DNA of 64,000 nt from Mogibacterium sp. (lineage in GTDB: Bacteria; Bacillota; Clostridia; Peptostreptococcales; Anaerovoracaceae): NCBI GenBank assembly GCA_017433975.1, contig JAFRGD010000033.1, forward strand, positions 1 through 64,000, written 5' to 3'. The translations under genes were made by a program, and so were the position numbers. The notes beneath the pieces were generated by a model. It saw only the letters and a list, made by a program, of their open reading frames with translations. It searched no databases and had not been told where the DNA came from. This document shows positions 19,644 through 45,592 of the stretch, one piece after another (positions within the stretch are counted from its first letter, which is position 1; each line of letters starts with the position of its first letter).

Positions 19644-19658
19644 TGCTTTGACAATTTA

Positions 19659-19740
19659 TAGCAGGGGAGCTTGTGTGCTGAGAAATCCGTGAGGATGACC
19701 CTTTAACCTGATTCGGGTAATGCCGACGTAGGGAGCGAAA
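19659..19740 (+). promoter_or_regulatory. TPP riboswitch (THI element) controlling thiT
   Basis: The conserved blocks of the THI element are present in order: GCAGGGGAGC, GCTGAGA at 19678, GACCCTTTAACCTGAT from 19697, GGGTAATGCC and GTAGGGAG ending near 19734. It senses thiamine pyrophosphate. The gene downstream imports thiamine, as expected for this class. Confidence 0.95.
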
Positions 19741-19757
19741 GCGTTTTTACACAAGTA

Positions 19758-32304: not shown

Positions 32305-32652
32305 CGGGTAAACCAGACGGTTGCGCCTGCCAACCAGAGCAGGTGAGGAAAGTCCGGGCTCCACAGGGCAAGGATGCCGGATAACGTCCGGCGTAGGTAA
32401 CTATAGGGAAAGTGCAACAGAAACATACCGCCGAAACGGGTCATGCCGTGGTAAGGTTGAAATGGTGAGGTAAGAGCTCACCGGCGTCTTGGAGACAAGG
32501 CGGCCGTGTAAACCCCATCCGGAGCAAGACTAAGCAGGGCCTCGCAAGGGGGCGGCCCGTCCCCGCCCGAAGGTAAGTCGCTGGAGGCCGTCAGCAATGG
32601 CGGTCCAAGATGGATGACCGTCCAACACAGAACCCGGCTTATGGTTTACCCG
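32305..32652 (+). ncRNA. rnpB: RNase P RNA (bacterial class A)
   Basis: The RNA subunit of RNase P matures tRNA 5' ends. P1 forms between CGGGTAAACCA (32305-32315) and TGGTTTACCCG (32642-32652). Conserved core blocks are present in order: GAGGAAAGTCCGGGCTCC with ACAGGGCAAGGATGCC (P4 5' side, J3/4), GAAACGGGTC, a GTAAACCCCATCCGGAGCAAG-type segment, and the CR V block ACAGAACCCGGCTTA. The length of about 348 bases and layout fit the ancestral class A. Confidence 0.96.
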
Positions 32653-32667
32653 TTTTTTGTTTTTTTA
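32642..32667 (+). terminator. rnpB 3' end and T run
   Basis: The 3' arm of P1 is followed by TTTTTTGTTTTTTT, so the closing helix of the RNA may double as its terminator. The large activase gene starts 12 bases further on. Confidence 0.65.
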
Positions 32668-32678
32668 CGAAGGTGAAA

Positions 32679-35600
32679 ATGTTCAGATTAGGGATCGATG
32701 TCGGTTCAACAACTGTTAAATTAATATTATTGGATGACGAGGGGCAGATCCTCTACGACCGGTATGAGCGGCACATGTCCAATGTGTTCGAAAAGGTCGA
32801 AGAGCTCCTCAAGGACCTCATGAACGAACGGGGAGACCTTGAACTCAAAGCAGTCATCACCGGGTCCGGCGGTTTATCGCTGGCGAATTTGTTTGGAATC
32901 AAATTCGAGCAGGAGGTCATCGCCTGCAGCAAAGCGGTTGAGACGCTGATTCCGGAGACGGACGTCGCGATCGAGCTCGGCGGCGAAGACGCAAAGATCA
33001 CGTTCTACGGCTCCACGGTGGAGCAGCGGATGAACGGGACCTGCGCGGGCGGAACCGGGGCTTTCATCGATCAAATGGCGGTTCTCCTGAACACGGACCT
33101 GGACGGCCTGAACGAAGCCGCAAAGGATTATCAGATTATCTATCCGATCGCGTCGCGGTGCGGTGTTTTTGCAAAGACGGACATCCAGCCGCTGATCAAC
33201 GACGGGGCGCGGACGGCTGACATCGCGGCGTCCATCTTTCAGGCGGTCGCAAACCAGACCATTTCAGGCCTCGCATGCGGGCATCCGATCCGCGGACACG
33301 TCGCGTTCCTCGGCGGGCCGCTGCAGTACAGGTCTGAGCTCCGCCGGCGGTTCATCGAGACGCTCGGCCTGACGGACGAGGAAGTGATTTTCCCGGAGAA
33401 TGCGAAGTACTTTGTCGCAATCGGCGCGGCGTATCTCGCGGACAAGGAGAAAACAGTCGTCCTGTCAGACCTGATTTCAGCCATCGAGACCGCTGACCCG
33501 AACGCGATTTCCGGCACCAAGTATCTGGAGCCGCTATTCGCCAATGAGCAGGAGTACCTGGAATTCAAGGAGCGGCACGCGCGGGCCAAAATGGAACGCG
33601 GCGACCTTTCGGACGCCATGGGACCGCTGTTCCTCGGCATCGACGCGGGGTCAACGACGACCAAAGCGGCGATCATTGACCGCGACAAGCGGTTGCTTTT
33701 TGACCACTATCAGAACAACGAAGGAGACCCGATCGAGGTCGTCCGCAACATTCTGAAAGAATTATATTCGAAGCTGCCGGAACAGGCATACATCGGGCGT
33801 GCCGTCGTCACCGGATACGGGGAAGGACTCATCCAGGCCGCGTTCAAGATCGACGCGGGCGAGATCGAGACGATGGCGCATTACAAAGCCGCGAGCCAGT
33901 TCCTGCCGGGCGTGACGTTCATCCTCGACATCGGCGGCCAGGACATGAAGTGCATGAAAATTAAGGACGGCGCGGTGTCCAGCATCATGTTGAACGAAGC
34001 CTGTTCGTCCGGCTGCGGTTCGTTTATCGAAACCTACGCGAAATCCGTCGACATGACGGTTCCGGACTTCGCGTACGAGGCGCTCCGGTCGCAGAATCCG
34101 GTTGACCTCGGGACGCGCTGCACGGTTTTCATGAACTCCAAGGTGAAACAGGCGCAGAAGGAAGGCGCATCGATCGCGGACATCTCCGCGGGACTTTCGT
34201 ATTCCGTCATAAAAAACGCTTTATATAAAGTCATCAAACTCCGGAATCCGGAGGAAACCGGGGACAAGGTCGTCGTACAGGGCGGTACGTTCCTGAACGA
34301 AGCGGTTCTGCGCAGCATCGAGCTCATCCTCGGAAAGAACGTCATCCGGCCGGAGACGTCCGGCCTCATGGGCGCGTACGGTGCGGCCATCGACGCGTGC
34401 GAGAACTACGTCAGCGGACAACGCTCCGGCATCCTGACCAGGGACGCGCTTGACACGTTCAGCGTCCGCACGACCAACGCGCGCTGCGGCAGGTGCGGCA
34501 ACAACTGCATCCTGACGATCTCCCGGTTTTCCGACGGGAGCCGGTACGTGACCGGAAACCGCTGCGAGAAAGGCGCCGGGGAGTCCGCGGTATACAATGA
34601 CCTTCCGAACCTGTATAAAACGAAACGGGACGTCCTCTTTGAACGGCCGGTGCTGGCACCGGAAGAAGCGCGCCGCGGGGAGATCGGAATCCCGCGCGTG
34701 CTTAACATGTACGAGGACTACCCGTTCTGGCACGCATTCTTTACCGAACTCGGCTTCCGCATCGTATTGAGCCCGTTCAGCAATAAGGCGATTTATGAGA
34801 GCGGGATGGACACCATCTCTTCGGATACCGCATGCTACCCGGCGAAGCTCGTCCACGGGCACATCAAATGGCTCGTCGAGCACGGTGTCAAGCGGATTTT
34901 CTATCCGTGCATTAATTTCGAGACCGTCGAGGACCGGACTGCGCCGAACCATTACAACTGCCCGGTGGTCGCGTCGTATCCGGAAGTCATCGACAAGAAC
35001 ATGGCGGAATACCTCTGCGAAAACGGCGTGGAGTACTATCATCCGTTCGTTCCGTTCGACAACGACGAGCGCCTAACGGAAGAGTTTGTCAAGTTCTTCA
35101 GCGGAACGCGCCAGATCGACAACGCCAGCGTTAAGAACATAATTAAGACCTATGGACTGGAAGACACCCGGGAATACGGGCTCTTTCAGATGAACATTTC
35201 GAAAAGCGAAGTCTCCGCCGCAATCAAAGCCGGCAGGAGGGCGCATGCGGACTTCAAGGGCGAAATGCGGCGCCAGGGCGACGCGGCACTCGCGTTCATG
35301 GCGGACAACGAGAAGAAAGGCGTCGTTCTTTCCGGCAGACCGTATCACCTCGACCCGGAGGTCAACCACGGGCTGGACAATATCATCAACCAGCAGGACA
35401 TGGTCGTCCTGACCGAGGACTCGATCAGCTGGAAAATCGACACCGCGCGGCCGATCCGCGTCTTAGACCAGTGGATGTATCATTCCAGACTGTATAAGGC
35501 TGCGCTGTTCGCCGGCCAGAGGAAGGACGTGGAGCTGATCCAGCTGAATTCCTTCGGCTGCGGCCTCGACGCCGTGACGACCGACGAGGTCGATGAGCTT

Positions 35601-37022
35601 CTGAGTAATAACAATAAACTATATACCGTACTGAAAATCGACGAGGGAACCAATCTCGGCGCAGCGCGGATCCGGATTCGTTCGCTCAAGGCGGCGCTCG
35701 AGGAGCGAGACAAGGCCGGCACCCTCCCGGAGGCGACCAACGAACCGTATGAGCGGAAGGTCTTCACCAAGGAGATGAAGCGCGAGGGCTATACGCTGCT
35801 CGTGCCGCAGATGTCGCCGATCCATTTCCAGTACTTTGAAGCGATCCTGCGGGCCGAAGGTTACCATGCGGAACTCCTACCGGAAGCGACCAAGAATTCC
35901 GAGGAAGAAGGCTTGCGGTACATCAATAACGACGCCTGCTATCCGACCATCGTTACGCTGGGGCAGATCATCTCCGCACTCAAATCCGGCAAATACGACC
36001 TGAACAAAGTTGGCGTCTTCATGTCGCAGACGGGCGGCGGATGCCGGGCGAGCAACTACGTTTCACTGCTCCGAAAGGCCCTCAAGGACCTCGGCATGGA
36101 GCAGGTTCCGGTCATTTCGTTCAACATGGCCGGGCTTGAGACCAACCCGGGCTTCAAGATCACGCCGCGGATGGCGATCCGCCTTATCTATGCGGTCCTT
36201 TACGGCGACCTCATCATGAAGTGCCTGTACCGCACCAGACCGTACGAAGTGGAGCCGGGGAGCGCCAACGCGCTGATGGACAGCTGGTACGACCGGATCA
36301 TCGACAACATCCTGACGCTCCGGATCGGTGAGTTCAAGCAGAACATTCAGGCGATCGTCAGGGAGTTTGATGCGCTACCGCTTCACGAGAACCTGCGCAA
36401 GCCGCGCGTCGGCATCGTCGGCGAGATCCTGGTGAAATACCACCCGAACGCGAACGACAATCTGGTCGACCTGATCGAGCGGGAAGGGGGAGAGGCGGTC
36501 GTACCGTCGCTGATCGACTTCTTCGAATACGGCATGGTGAATAAAGTCTTTAACTACAGATATCTGGCCGGCAGCCGTAAGGACATGATGTTCAACAAGG
36601 CCGCACTCCGGACGATCGAATATTTCCGCAAGACCGTCCGCGCCGCGTGCATGGAGAGCCGCCGCTTTACCGCGGACGAGTACATCGAGCACACCGCGTG
36701 GAAGGCGGAGGAGATCATTTCGGTCGGAAATCAGTGTGGCGAGGGGTGGCTCCTGACCGGCGAGATGGTCGATCTGATCGACGCGGGGGTGAAAAACATC
36801 CTTTGCCTGCAGCCGTTCGCTTGTTTACCAAATCATGTTACCGGTAAAGGCATGATCAAAGCGTTGCGGAACTACGATAAGGACGCGAATATCGTCGCCA
36901 TCGACTACGATCCGGGCGCGTCCAATGTCAATCAACTCAACCGAATCAAGATGATGATGGCCACAGCATTCAAGAATCTCGAAAAAGAGATGCAATCGGA
37001 GGAAGGAGAGAGAGCCGTATGA
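32679..37022 (+). CDS. Large 2-hydroxyacyl-CoA dehydratase activase-type ATPase with DUF2229
   Basis: The 1447-residue protein joins two BadF/BadG/BcrA/BcrD ATPase domains (LGIDVGSTTVKLILL at 4-18; FLGIDAGSTTTKAAII near 317-332), a DUF2229 region from about 665 (GIPRVLNMYEDYPFWHAFF) and a long C-terminal part like HgdB-type dehydratase subunits. Domain 2 keeps cysteines like those that hold the [4Fe-4S] cluster in HgdC activators (EACSSGCGSF and RCTVFMNSKV); domain 1 has TCAGGTGAF and RCGVFAKTD. Such fused proteins are common in Clostridia, but their substrate is unknown; electron donation for radical dehydration is an inference from HgdC. ATG 32679 has AAGGTGA. The stop overlaps ackA by four bases (ATGA). 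Confidence 0.88.
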   Translation: MFRLGIDVGSTTVKLILLDDEGQILYDRYERHMSNVFEKVEELLKDLMNERGDLELKAVITGSGGLSLANLFGIKFEQEVIACSKAVETLIPETDVAIELGGEDAKITFYGSTVEQRMNGTCAGGTGAFIDQMAVLLNTDLDGLNEAAKDYQIIYPIASRCGVFAKTDIQPLINDGARTADIAASIFQAVANQTISGLACGHPIRGHVAFLGGPLQYRSELRRRFIETLGLTDEEVIFPENAKYFVAIGAAYLADKEKTVVLSDLISAIETADPNAISGTKYLEPLFANEQEYLEFKERHARAKMERGDLSDAMGPLFLGIDAGSTTTKAAIIDRDKRLLFDHYQNNEGDPIEVVRNILKELYSKLPEQAYIGRAVVTGYGEGLIQAAFKIDAGEIETMAHYKAASQFLPGVTFILDIGGQDMKCMKIKDGAVSSIMLNEACSSGCGSFIETYAKSVDMTVPDFAYEALRSQNPVDLGTRCTVFMNSKVKQAQKEGASIADISAGLSYSVIKNALYKVIKLRNPEETGDKVVVQGGTFLNEAVLRSIELILGKNVIRPETSGLMGAYGAAIDACENYVSGQRSGILTRDALDTFSVRTTNARCGRCGNNCILTISRFSDGSRYVTGNRCEKGAGESAVYNDLPNLYKTKRDVLFERPVLAPEEARRGEIGIPRVLNMYEDYPFWHAFFTELGFRIVLSPFSNKAIYESGMDTISSDTACYPAKLVHGHIKWLVEHGVKRIFYPCINFETVEDRTAPNHYNCPVVASYPEVIDKNMAEYLCENGVEYYHPFVPFDNDERLTEEFVKFFSGTRQIDNASVKNIIKTYGLEDTREYGLFQMNISKSEVSAAIKAGRRAHADFKGEMRRQGDAALAFMADNEKKGVVLSGRPYHLDPEVNHGLDNIINQQDMVVLTEDSISWKIDTARPIRVLDQWMYHSRLYKAALFAGQRKDVELIQLNSFGCGLDAVTTDEVDELLSNNNKLYTVLKIDEGTNLGAARIRIRSLKAALEERDKAGTLPEATNEPYERKVFTKEMKREGYTLLVPQMSPIHFQYFEAILRAEGYHAELLPEATKNSEEEGLRYINNDACYPTIVTLGQIISALKSGKYDLNKVGVFMSQTGGGCRASNYVSLLRKALKDLGMEQVPVISFNMAGLETNPGFKITPRMAIRLIYAVLYGDLIMKCLYRTRPYEVEPGSANALMDSWYDRIIDNILTLRIGEFKQNIQAIVREFDALPLHENLRKPRVGIVGEILVKYHPNANDNLVDLIEREGGEAVVPSLIDFFEYGMVNKVFNYRYLAGSRKDMMFNKAALRTIEYFRKTVRAACMESRRFTADEYIEHTAWKAEEIISVGNQCGEGWLLTGEMVDLIDAGVKNILCLQPFACLPNHVTGKGMIKALRNYDKDANIVAIDYDPGASNVNQLNRIKMMMATAFKNLEKEMQSEEGERAV

Positions 37023-38287: not shown

Positions 38288-38316
38288 TTGAATTCATCAT
38301 TTACATGATGTATAAT
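38288..38316 (+). promoter_or_regulatory. Promoter of the yebC-family gene
   Basis: TTGAAT (38288-38293), a 17-base spacer and TATAAT (38311-38316). The spacer contains CATCAT (38295-38300) and ATGATG (38305-38310) as an inverted repeat around TTAC, a possible operator. Confidence 0.75.
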
Positions 38317-38354
38317 GTGACTGAGATTAATGATTAACAAGGAGGTACGTACCC

Positions 38355-39074
38355 ATGGGCAGACATGGTACCATTGCAGGCAGAAAATCAGCGCAGGACG
38401 CGAGACGTGCTGCGATGTTCACAAAATATACGCGGCAGATCATCGTCGCGGCCAAGGACGGCGGCGATCCGGACTTTAACCCTTCGCTCCGCGTGGCGAT
38501 CGACAAGGCCAAGGGCATCGGTATGCCGAACGACAACATCAACCGCGCGATCAAAAAGGGCACCGGCGAGCTCGCCGGCGAGTCCTACGAAGAGCTTTCG
38601 TTTGAAGGATACGGCACGTCCGGCGTCGCGATCATCGTCGAGGCGCTGACGGACAACAAGAACCGTACTGCAGCGTTCGTCCGGTCCATCTTCGATAAGA
38701 ACGGTGGTAACCTCGGTACGCCGGGCTGCGTCTCCTACATGTTCGATCGCAAGGGCGTCATCGTCGTAGAGAAAACTGACGATATCGACGAGGACACTAT
38801 CACGATGGACGCGCTGGACGCCGGCGCGGAAGACCTGATCGTCAACGAGGACAACTACGAGATCCGTACCGAGCCTTCTGACTATACGACTGTACTCGAG
38901 GCTGTCAAGGCGGCCGGCTATGAAGTCGTCGAGTCCGAGATCGAGTTCATCCCGTCCATGGAGGCCAACGTCACCGACGAGAGCGCGATCAAGTCGCTCA
39001 ACAAGCTGATCAACGCCCTCGAGGACAACGACGACGTGCAGAACGTACACTATAACTGCACACTGCCGGAATAA
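38355..39074 (+). CDS. yebC: YebC/PmpR/TACO1-family protein
   Basis: The 239-residue protein is full length for the family. It has the N-terminal MGRHGTIAGRKSAQDARRAA signature, IVAAKDGGDPDFNPSLRVAI and the NDNINRAIKKGTGE stretch (about 56-69). Some members act as DNA-binding regulators; the mitochondrial TACO1 and recent work on bacterial members point to translation, so the exact role is open. An AAGGAGGTACG site precedes the ATG. It has its own promoter and is followed by a structured RNA. Confidence 0.9.
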   Translation: MGRHGTIAGRKSAQDARRAAMFTKYTRQIIVAAKDGGDPDFNPSLRVAIDKAKGIGMPNDNINRAIKKGTGELAGESYEELSFEGYGTSGVAIIVEALTDNKNRTAAFVRSIFDKNGGNLGTPGCVSYMFDRKGVIVVEKTDDIDEDTITMDALDAGAEDLIVNEDNYEIRTEPSDYTTVLEAVKAAGYEVVESEIEFIPSMEANVTDESAIKSLNKLINALEDNDDVQNVHYNCTLPE

Positions 39075-39089
39075 AACTGATTTCACCTG

Positions 39090-39280
39090 TAGATGGTGAG
39101 ACAAACAGTGCACCGCACTCATAACACGAACGTATTCCTGGAATATGCGTTGGGTCTGTTTAATTGAACCTACACATACGCATCGGGATCCCGGGTTCGC
39201 GGCGGATGAAATGCCTCCATCGAGTGGACTTCAGCAAACCGAGACAGGGAGTACCCACCCTTATCTATTGATAGGGCGTC
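39090..39280 (+). ncRNA. ssrS: Structured non-coding RNA, probable 6S RNA
   Basis: The 343-base gap after yebC has no gene but folds by eye into one long rod. CACTC (39116-39120) pairs with GAGTG (39222-39226); CGAAC (39127-39131) with GTTCG (39195-39199); ATGCGT (39145-39150) with ACGCAT (39178-39183) under an apical loop. Between the first two helices is an asymmetric bubble: ATAACA on the 5' side and 22 bases with a small internal hairpin on the 3' side. That is the layout of 6S RNA, which binds sigma-70-type RNA polymerase. Sequence blocks are not certain, ends are approximate and no promoter is clear. Confidence 0.5.
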
Positions 39281-39313
39281 AATTAAAGACCTGACGGTAT
39301 TCCGGGTTTTTTT
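39259..39313 (+). terminator. Tandem hairpins and T run after the structured RNA
   Basis: CCTTATC (39259-39265) pairs with GATAGGG (39270-39276, one G-U). A second weak stem, ACCTG (39289-39293) with CGGGT (39303-39307), is followed by seven T residues to 39313. Confidence 0.65.
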
Positions 39314-39329
39314 GCGCCATTTCTTCTTA

Positions 39330-39359
39330 TTGACAGTTAAAAGACGCGTAAACTATAAT
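39330..39359 (+). promoter_or_regulatory. Promoter of the OPT transporter gene
   Basis: TTGACA (39330-39335), an 18-base spacer and TATAAT (39354-39359), about 59 bases ahead of the start codon. Confidence 0.78.
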
Positions 39360-39417
39360 TAACGCAGATGTGATTTCCCAACGGTTACACATACTATTTA
39401 CAAAGGATGGTACAGAA

Positions 39418-41031
39418 ATGAATAACAAGAGCAAATCTGATGGCAGATCACTGACCGTAAGGGGCCTCATCATCGGCAGCATCGGATCCGTGATCATCAC
39501 CATGAGCTCGATGTTCATCGCGCTCAAAATGAGTTCTCTGCCGTGGCCGATCATCTTCGTGGCCCTGGCGTCCATGTTCTCGCTCAAGGCTCTGGGCAAC
39601 ACCAATCTGCATGAGATCAACGTCACGCACACCGCGATGTCTGCCGGCGCCATGGTGTCCGGCGGCCTGGCGTTTACGATCCCGGGCATGTGGGTTGCAG
39701 CGGACCACCAGGAGCTGAACATTCCGGTCCTTCTCGCGATCTCGCTCGGCGGAACGGTTCTCGGACTGATCTTCACCGCGATGATCCGCAAGTATTTCAT
39801 TGAGACCAAGGACCTGAACTACCCGATGGGGCAGGCGGCGGCCGATACCCTCGTCGCGGGAGACGAGGGCGGCACCAAGGCAAAGATTCTCTTCGGGTCG
39901 ATGGGCGTCGTAGCGGTCTATACCGTGCTGCGCGACTGGTTCCAAAAGATCCCGGCGGTCTGGTTCAGTAAACGCATGGGGGCGTACGGTTCGTCAGCCG
40001 GCCTGTATTTCTCGCCGATGCTGATTGGAATCGGTTACATTCTGGGTCCGGTCATGATTGGCGTCTGGTTCATCGGCGCGCTGATCGGCGACGTCGGAAT
40101 CCTCCTGATCGGCCAGAAGTCCGGCCTGTTGGATCTTGTTACTGCAACAAATATTAAAGCTTCTCTCGGCATTGGCCTGATGGTCGGATCCGGTATCGGC
40201 ATCCTGATCAAAGGCATCCTGCCGAACCTCAAAGAGATCATCAAGGGTTCCCTCAGTAAAGACGGGAACGATGAACTCGTGGTCGGCGTCCGCCCGATGG
40301 CGGTCATCGCAGTTATCATAGCAGTCATCTTCTCGACGGTCTGCCACCTCGGCCCGATTGCTTCGATCATCACGATCCTCGGCGCGTGGCTCGCGACGTC
40401 GATGTCCGCGGAGTGTGTCGGCCAGACTGGCGTCAATCCGATGGAGATCTTCGGCATCCTCGTTCTGCTGCTCGTCCGCGCGATCACGTCGCTCGGCGGC
40501 CAGGAGATGTTCTACGTCGCTGCGATCGTGGCAGTTGCTGCAGGACTTGTTGGCGACGTCATGAACGACTTCAAGGCCGGGCACATCCTCGGAACCAACC
40601 ATCGCGACATGTGGATCAGCGAAGCCGTCGGCGGCATCCTCGGTGCGGTTGCGGCGGTCTTCACACTTGTCATTATCTATAAAGGGTACGGCGCGGGCGC
40701 AATCGGCGGCGAGCAGTTCCCGGCGGCGCAGGCCATGGCCGTCGCTTCGATGGTCAACGGGATCTCGCACATTCCGGCGTTCGTCATCGGCGTCATCGCA
40801 GCGGTAGTATTATATCTGCTGAACTTCCCGGTCATGACCCTCGGCCTCGGCGTCTACCTCCCGATGTACATGTCCTGCACGGCATTCCTCGGCGGCGCGC
40901 TCCGGTTCGTCCTGGACAAGGTCAAACCGGGTTCGGACGGGACCGGCAACATCATCGCTTCCGGCTGCCTCGGCGGCGAAGCGATCATCGGCGTCATCAT
41001 TTCCAGTATCCTGGCAATTCAGGCGATTTAG
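39418..41031 (+). CDS. OPT-family oligopeptide transporter
   Basis: This 537-residue integral membrane protein has about 13-14 hydrophobic segments from residue 17 on and fits the short bacterial branch of the OPT superfamily (EIN-VTHTAMSAGAMVSGGLAF region near 66-90; DLNYPMGQAAADTLVAG near 130-146). OPT proteins import small peptides or metal chelates by cation symport. The ATG at 39418 has AAAGGATGG before it; codons upstream to 39370 are not family-like. The P1-family peptidase gene follows after 52 bases, which favours a peptide substrate, but this is context only. Confidence 0.87.
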   Translation: MNNKSKSDGRSLTVRGLIIGSIGSVIITMSSMFIALKMSSLPWPIIFVALASMFSLKALGNTNLHEINVTHTAMSAGAMVSGGLAFTIPGMWVAADHQELNIPVLLAISLGGTVLGLIFTAMIRKYFIETKDLNYPMGQAAADTLVAGDEGGTKAKILFGSMGVVAVYTVLRDWFQKIPAVWFSKRMGAYGSSAGLYFSPMLIGIGYILGPVMIGVWFIGALIGDVGILLIGQKSGLLDLVTATNIKASLGIGLMVGSGIGILIKGILPNLKEIIKGSLSKDGNDELVVGVRPMAVIAVIIAVIFSTVCHLGPIASIITILGAWLATSMSAECVGQTGVNPMEIFGILVLLLVRAITSLGGQEMFYVAAIVAVAAGLVGDVMNDFKAGHILGTNHRDMWISEAVGGILGAVAAVFTLVIIYKGYGAGAIGGEQFPAAQAMAVASMVNGISHIPAFVIGVIAAVVLYLLNFPVMTLGLGVYLPMYMSCTAFLGGALRFVLDKVKPGSDGTGNIIASGCLGGEAIIGVIISSILAIQAI

Positions 41032-45392: not shown

Positions 45393-45474
45393 GTGGCTGT
45401 GGCGGAATGGCAGACGCGCATGCTTGAGGGGCATGTGGGAGACCGTGCTGGTTCGAGTCCAGTCAGCCACACCA
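45393..45474 (+). tRNA. tRNA-Leu (anticodon GAG)
   Basis: The acceptor stem GTGGCTG/CAGCCAC, a long variable arm (class II tRNA), T-loop GGTTCGAGTCC and encoded CCA are all present. The anticodon stem CATGC/GCATG holds the loop TTGAGGG, anticodon GAG, reading CUC and CUU. CUC is a common leucine codon in this window and is the candidate specifier of the leuA T-box. Confidence 0.96.
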
Positions 45475-45505
45475 TTTTTTTTTACCATAACAACCTCAAA
45501 TTTGC

Positions 45506-45592
45506 GCCGGCGTGGTGGAATTGGCAGACGCGCGGGACTCAAAATCCCGTGGTAGGGATACCGTGTGGGTTCGAGCCCCACCGCCGGCACCA
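45506..45592 (+). tRNA. tRNA-Leu (anticodon CAA)
   Basis: The acceptor stem is GCCGGCG/CGCCGGC, with a long variable arm, T-loop GGTTCGAGCCC and encoded CCA. The anticodon stem CGGGA/TCCCG encloses CTCAAAA, anticodon CAA, which reads UUG. It lies 31 bases after tRNA-Leu(GAG), and the two differ throughout, so this is not a recent duplication. Confidence 0.96.

Follow-up and report, generated by a model that had tools for sequence, protein, structure and literature searches.

The structured RNA encoded downstream of yebC in the 64,000-nucleotide stretch of Mogibacterium sp. DNA analyzed here (the window) is almost certainly the 6S RNA of this organism, and of the ordinary type. 6S RNA is a widespread small RNA believed to imitate an open promoter and to keep RNA polymerase bound. 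Its identification here rests on a match to the Rfam 6S family, conserved and covarying helices, a pRNA-template core that was invariant in the loci examined, and one genomic copy. By analogy with the family, it would act as an open-promoter mimic that sequesters the holoenzyme and releases it via pRNA synthesis. The RNA is thus a new 6S member of an already known RNA family, and only its possible co-transcription with yebC exceeds the ordinary.

Identity and fold of the RNA

The Rfam search matched RF00013 (6S) to positions 39132-39312 of the plus strand with 49.5 bits, over model positions 1-187 of 187, supporting the 6S reading of the original prediction. The score is low for the family and exceeds the gathering score of 46.4 by a narrow margin of ~3 bits, which would fit an RNA other than 6S: either another one that binds RNA polymerase, for example Ms1, or an unnamed structured RNA with a mere resemblance to 6S. 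Such an RNA is very unlikely: within 39050-39450, RF00013 was alone among the 4227 Rfam families in matching at E up to 10, on which ground assignment to another family was rejected; relatives with the RNA beside yebC reached 89.7 bits on RF00013 (L043) and aligned with the window over the whole length; and the hallmarks of a pRNA template are present (see below). A clade model, R1, built from 17 sequences with the window's own included, gave 154.3 bits for the window copy, a score to be read with this training set in mind. A minus-strand match of R1 in the window (19.6 bits) was read as the mirror of the long stem. Both RF00013 and R1 detected a single 6S copy in the window's genome, and neither found a second paralogue in this assembly, which is 83% complete.

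The original prediction had placed the RNA at 39075-39417. Its core of 181 nt (39132-39312) stands, with limits set by RF00013 from which the true ends may differ by some nucleotides, but the interval extended 57 nt too far in the 5′ direction and 105 nt too far in the 3′ direction. The spacer between yebC and 6S (39075-39131) contains two small hairpins that lie upstream of 6S and do not belong to it. The closing stem pairs 39137-39150 with 39293-39306, and compensatory changes occurred in this helix 1. Inside it, UAAUUGA (39161-39167) pairs with UCAAUUA (39279-39285) to form the bubble-proximal stem, helix 2, with 100% of cells paired and both-side changes in three of seven pairs in alignment A1, described below. 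The 5′ strand of the central bubble spans 39168-39184 according to the RF00013 alignment and A1, its borders being drawn by inspection; the apical arm follows at 39185-39256, where the entry GGG (39185-39187) is paired with CCC (39254-39256). The predicted rod shape was recovered, with a closing stem in three segments, a bubble and an apical arm. The bubble is asymmetric, as predicted, and its 3′ strand carries a hairpin (39259-39276), which has 7 bp in the window. After the rod, a T run preceded by two further hairpins had been expected; instead, the 3′ strand of the closing stem runs straight into the T run (39307-39313), and 39313-39417 (105 nt, −15.3 kcal/mol) folds weakly and is not 6S. 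Judged from the sequence, closing stem and T run would together set the 3′ end of 6S, although the T run was not listed by the short-loop terminator scan.

When 39132-39312 was folded as a single sequence, the energy was −62.3 kcal/mol against −50.38 for shuffles (sd 4.27; z −2.79), with 1 of 200 shuffles as good, and the minimum-energy fold lacked the canonical apical arm. This modest z is what a chance fold in the spacer between yebC and the downstream OPT-type transporter gene, with no functional RNA, would have in its favor. The covariation contradicts it. In A1, which comprises the window and 16 relatives (17 sequences), RNAalifold with no imposed structure predicted 42 pairs, 19 of them with compensatory changes. 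A 6S-type structure of 44 pairs, hand-written on A1 starting from this result, had 95.2% of cells paired and both-side changes in 20 of 44 pairs, and its covariation score was 0.309 versus 0.151 for shuffles, with 0 of 500 as high. The covariation sought to corroborate the original prediction was thus found. Sliding the partners lowered pairing to 36.9-45.7%, a control that favors the 44-pair structure because that structure was derived from the same sequences, so that the compensatory counts are the stronger point. Covariation is a much stronger support for the RNA than the single-sequence z, and with 6S also detected in 135 of 148 family genomes (see below), a chance fold is extremely improbable.

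Not all elements were equally firm in A1. The short apical helix 4 was weak (70.6% paired). For the 3′ bubble-strand hairpin, a stem of 6-8 bp is possible in 17 of 17 sequences, and in L042 and L043 the pairing was kept despite altered letters. RNAalifold preferred an alternative to this hairpin in which CCUA of the 5′ bubble strand pairs with UAGG of the 3′ strand; both pairings may occur, each at its own stage of a 6S cycle.

Flanked in the same orientation by yebC and an OPT-type transporter gene (ATG 39418), and terminated by a T run, the RNA could also be taken for a cis-acting leader (riboswitch or attenuator) of the transporter gene. An OPT gene was found downstream in 5 of 30 family loci and was the next gene in L004, L016 and L030. 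However, the segment 39313-39417 contains the leader of the window's OPT gene together with a sigma-70 promoter match: TTGACA-18-TATAAT (39330-39359, plus strand, 12/12) stands after the T run, outside 6S, and is most simply taken as the promoter of that gene. Moreover, the remaining 25 of the 30 loci showed no OPT gene within the ~1.5 kb available on either side, or less where a contig ended, polA was the next gene in L002 and lay within 1 kb in L031, and the Rfam assignment is 6S. The leader reading was rejected on the grounds of the OPT gene's separate promoter match past the RNA and of neighbors that vary among relatives; we give it practically no chance.

The OPT-type transporter itself (39418-41031) scored 88.1 bits against an NCBIfam cut-off of 182.5 and, being below the NCBIfam cut-offs, is a divergent member. 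Elsewhere in the window, a bacterial RNase P RNA of class A was matched at 32305-32656 (290.2 bits); since the ORF 32610-37022 starts inside it, the true start of that ORF is probably later. A TPP riboswitch (67 bits) was located at 19653-19751 and two consecutive tRNA genes at 45393-45589.

Predicted pRNA template and proposed polymerase release

The pRNA start was placed at approximately C39173 via the RF00013 alignment, the exact base being picked partly with the published hallmarks in view. The predicted template (39158-39173, plus strand) would be read from C39173 toward lower coordinates, giving the pRNA 5′-GUAGGUUCAAUUAAAC, which has GG at positions 4/5, AA at 9/10 and an A upstream of the start. 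PMC8414754 gives GG at 4/5 or 5/6, AA at 9/10 and an upstream adenine as pRNA hallmarks, and all of these are found in the window. Among the sequences of A1, L041 lacks AA at 9/10, and L039 and L052 carry G in place of the upstream A. The template core AACCUAC (39167-39173) was present in 48 of 48 loci, 47 of which are distinct (L039 and L011 are identical), and the base following it was A in 42 and G in 6. Compared with RF00013 6S/SsrS in general, the window RNA shares the length (181 nt), the closing stem, the asymmetric bubble, the apical arm and the 3′ bubble-strand hairpin, but differs in its low score and in having the core AACCUAC throughout the loci examined.

The predicted pRNA starts with G, like that of Bacillus subtilis 6S-1 RNA (bsrA), and has GG and AA near the same positions. 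The B. subtilis 6S-1 pRNA is given as GUUCGGUCAAAACU in PMC8876501, to be compared with GUAGGUUCAAUUAA here; GG is at 4/5 here and at 5/6 there. According to PMC8414754, GG is located at 4/5 in E. coli, A. aeolicus and R. spheroides and at 5/6 in lactic acid bacteria, so that on this source the window has GG at the Gram-negative-like place and not at that of lactic acid bacteria. The same source describes two 6S paralogues in B. subtilis, whereas one copy was found here in an assembly that is 83% complete.

On this basis, a release cycle may be proposed. When NTPs return, the polymerase would start at C39173 and use the bubble's 5′ strand and the bubble-proximal stem as template for the short pRNA predicted above; if started with GTP, it would begin GUAGGUUC. 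Its synthesis would open the bubble-proximal stem, the 3′ strand would refold, and the polymerase would be released.

Occurrence of 6S RNA in relatives

Relatives were fetched via YebC, and 80 of 582 loci were kept. The closest came from assemblies of uncultured Clostridiales, Clostridia and Bacillota, several of which were labelled goat, sheep or buffalo gut. Among the 20 closest yebC loci, 16 had an Rfam 6S match, located directly after yebC in 14 and ~2 kb further on in L039 and L052. No Rfam 6S match was found in the remaining four of these 20 (L037, L046, L048 and L040), and the contig of L040 ends 16 nt past the yebC match.

In the family of the window more broadly, RF00013 gave a match at E up to 0.1 in 104 of 148 genomes, and in 96 the score exceeded the cut-off. 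This search was run with stricter filters, and the window's own copy was missed in it. R1 at E up to 0.01 recovered 6S from 135 of the 148, including 82 of the 84 near-complete (good-quality) genomes, leaving 13 of 148 without an R1 match. At least two R1 training sequences come from the genomes searched, namely that of the window and L039 (identical to L011 of G126). A single 6S match was obtained in 134 of the 135 positive genomes; the family genome G145 had two partial 6S matches on different contigs, possibly an assembly effect. 6S RNA is thus close to universal in the family of the window.

yebC linkage and transcription of 6S RNA

The gene upstream of 6S is yebC (YebC/PmpR family; 38355-39074, plus strand; NCBIfam NF001030, 299.5 bits against a cut-off of 243), a recurrent upstream neighbor of 6S. 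We compiled 48 loci: the window and 17 others reached via yebC (18 together, 16 of them with yebC within 200 nt), and 30 reached via Rfam. yebC was upstream of 6S on the same strand in 38 of the 48, with a gap of 0-200 nt in 35. In the 30 family loci reached via Rfam, yebC lay within 200 nt upstream of 6S in 19, and some gaps were 5-13 nt. When R1 was run on the window and on 64 yebC loci (the four of the closest 20 without an Rfam 6S match and 60 more distant ones), 6S was found just after yebC in only L055 and L067, both among the 60 more distant loci; L071 gave a partial match at the locus end (E 0.82). These results hint that the linkage is clade-specific, but the evidence is weak, because the 60 distant loci were scored with R1 alone, many loci are truncated where a contig ends, and distant 6S RNAs may escape R1.

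In the window, a promoter-like site, TTGAAT-17-TATAAT (38288-38316, plus strand), precedes yebC with 10/12 consensus positions, as a consensus match only. From there to the promoter match before the OPT gene (38317-39329, plus strand), the scan returned no match of 9/12 or better, and no terminator-like site was detected on the plus strand between yebC and 6S. By eye, a weak 8/12 site below the scan threshold, GAGACA-16-CATAAC, was recognized at 39098-39125 (plus strand). It ends 6 nt before 39132, the right distance for a promoter, which favors a possible own promoter for 6S. The best match in the 90 nt upstream of 6S was 7/12 when the −10 element must end in T, and a 160-nt upstream scan gave an 8/12 match within the end of yebC. 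The one slightly unusual point about this 6S is its place at the tail of yebC with no strong own promoter evident. Its source may be the weak spacer promoter or 5′ processing of a yebC-6S transcript.

As a test for own promoters, the 90 nt upstream of 6S were scanned in the 48 loci for a match of at least 9/12, with a T demanded at the −10 end. Such a match was found in 0 of 9 loci when the yebC gap was 15 nt or less (5-13 nt), in 3 of 9 at 16-40 nt, in 11 of 17 at 41-200 nt, and in 12 of 13 (counted by hand) when 6S was away from yebC or yebC was absent from the stretch. Fisher tests gave p 2e-5 for 0/9 versus 12/13 and p 0.002 for 0/9 versus 11/17; without the duplicate L011, 0/9 versus 11/12 gave p 3.4e-5. 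Mann-Whitney tests on the per-locus mononucleotide-shuffle fractions gave p 0.001 and 0.006. The test is confounded, as the loci share ancestry (several of those with short gaps especially closely) and short gaps put the 90 nt into GC-rich coding sequence. The averaged profile of the 48 loci had a modest −10-like peak ending 5 nt upstream (z 4.4 for −10 alone), which is in favor of own promoters in part of the loci.

The promoter gradient, though confounded by relatedness and base composition, would fit a yebC transcript that in some lineages also carries 6S. Tentatively, then, the yebC transcription unit of some lineages of the family may have come to include a 6S that lacks an own promoter and is cleaved from the 3′ end of the yebC mRNA, a reading that we regard as rather doubtful. 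The window is not a short-gap locus: its gap of 57 nt and the 8/12 match ending 6 nt before 39132 weaken the shared-transcript reading, and release of 6S from the yebC transcript is only a possibility here.

Known 6S systems offer partial parallels. In Clostridioides difficile, 6S (RCd3) was experimentally detected in forms of ~200 and ~175 nt, possibly primary and processed, and consensus −35/−10 elements lie before its start, as reported in PMC3649979; the spacer of the window, in contrast, has an 8/12 match and none of 9/12 or better. 6S is cut from a longer transcript in the Bacillus thuringiensis ssrSA-ssrSB operon and from the ssrS precursor in E. coli, as described in PMC7726162. The precursor in those cases holds a second 6S or is a longer 6S precursor, whereas here it would be the yebC mRNA. 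In the open-licence literature, we found no paper that brings '6S RNA' together with 'yebC', and none of the titles listed dealt with the clade of the window.

The analysis adds a lineage whose 6S RNAs obtain low scores with the general Rfam model or escape it when fast filters are applied. If some lineages indeed express 6S within the yebC transcription unit, the supply of this global RNA polymerase inhibitor would be tied to YebC expression, and a shared transcript would illustrate in simple form how a global regulator of transcription can arise as the 3′ product of an mRNA.
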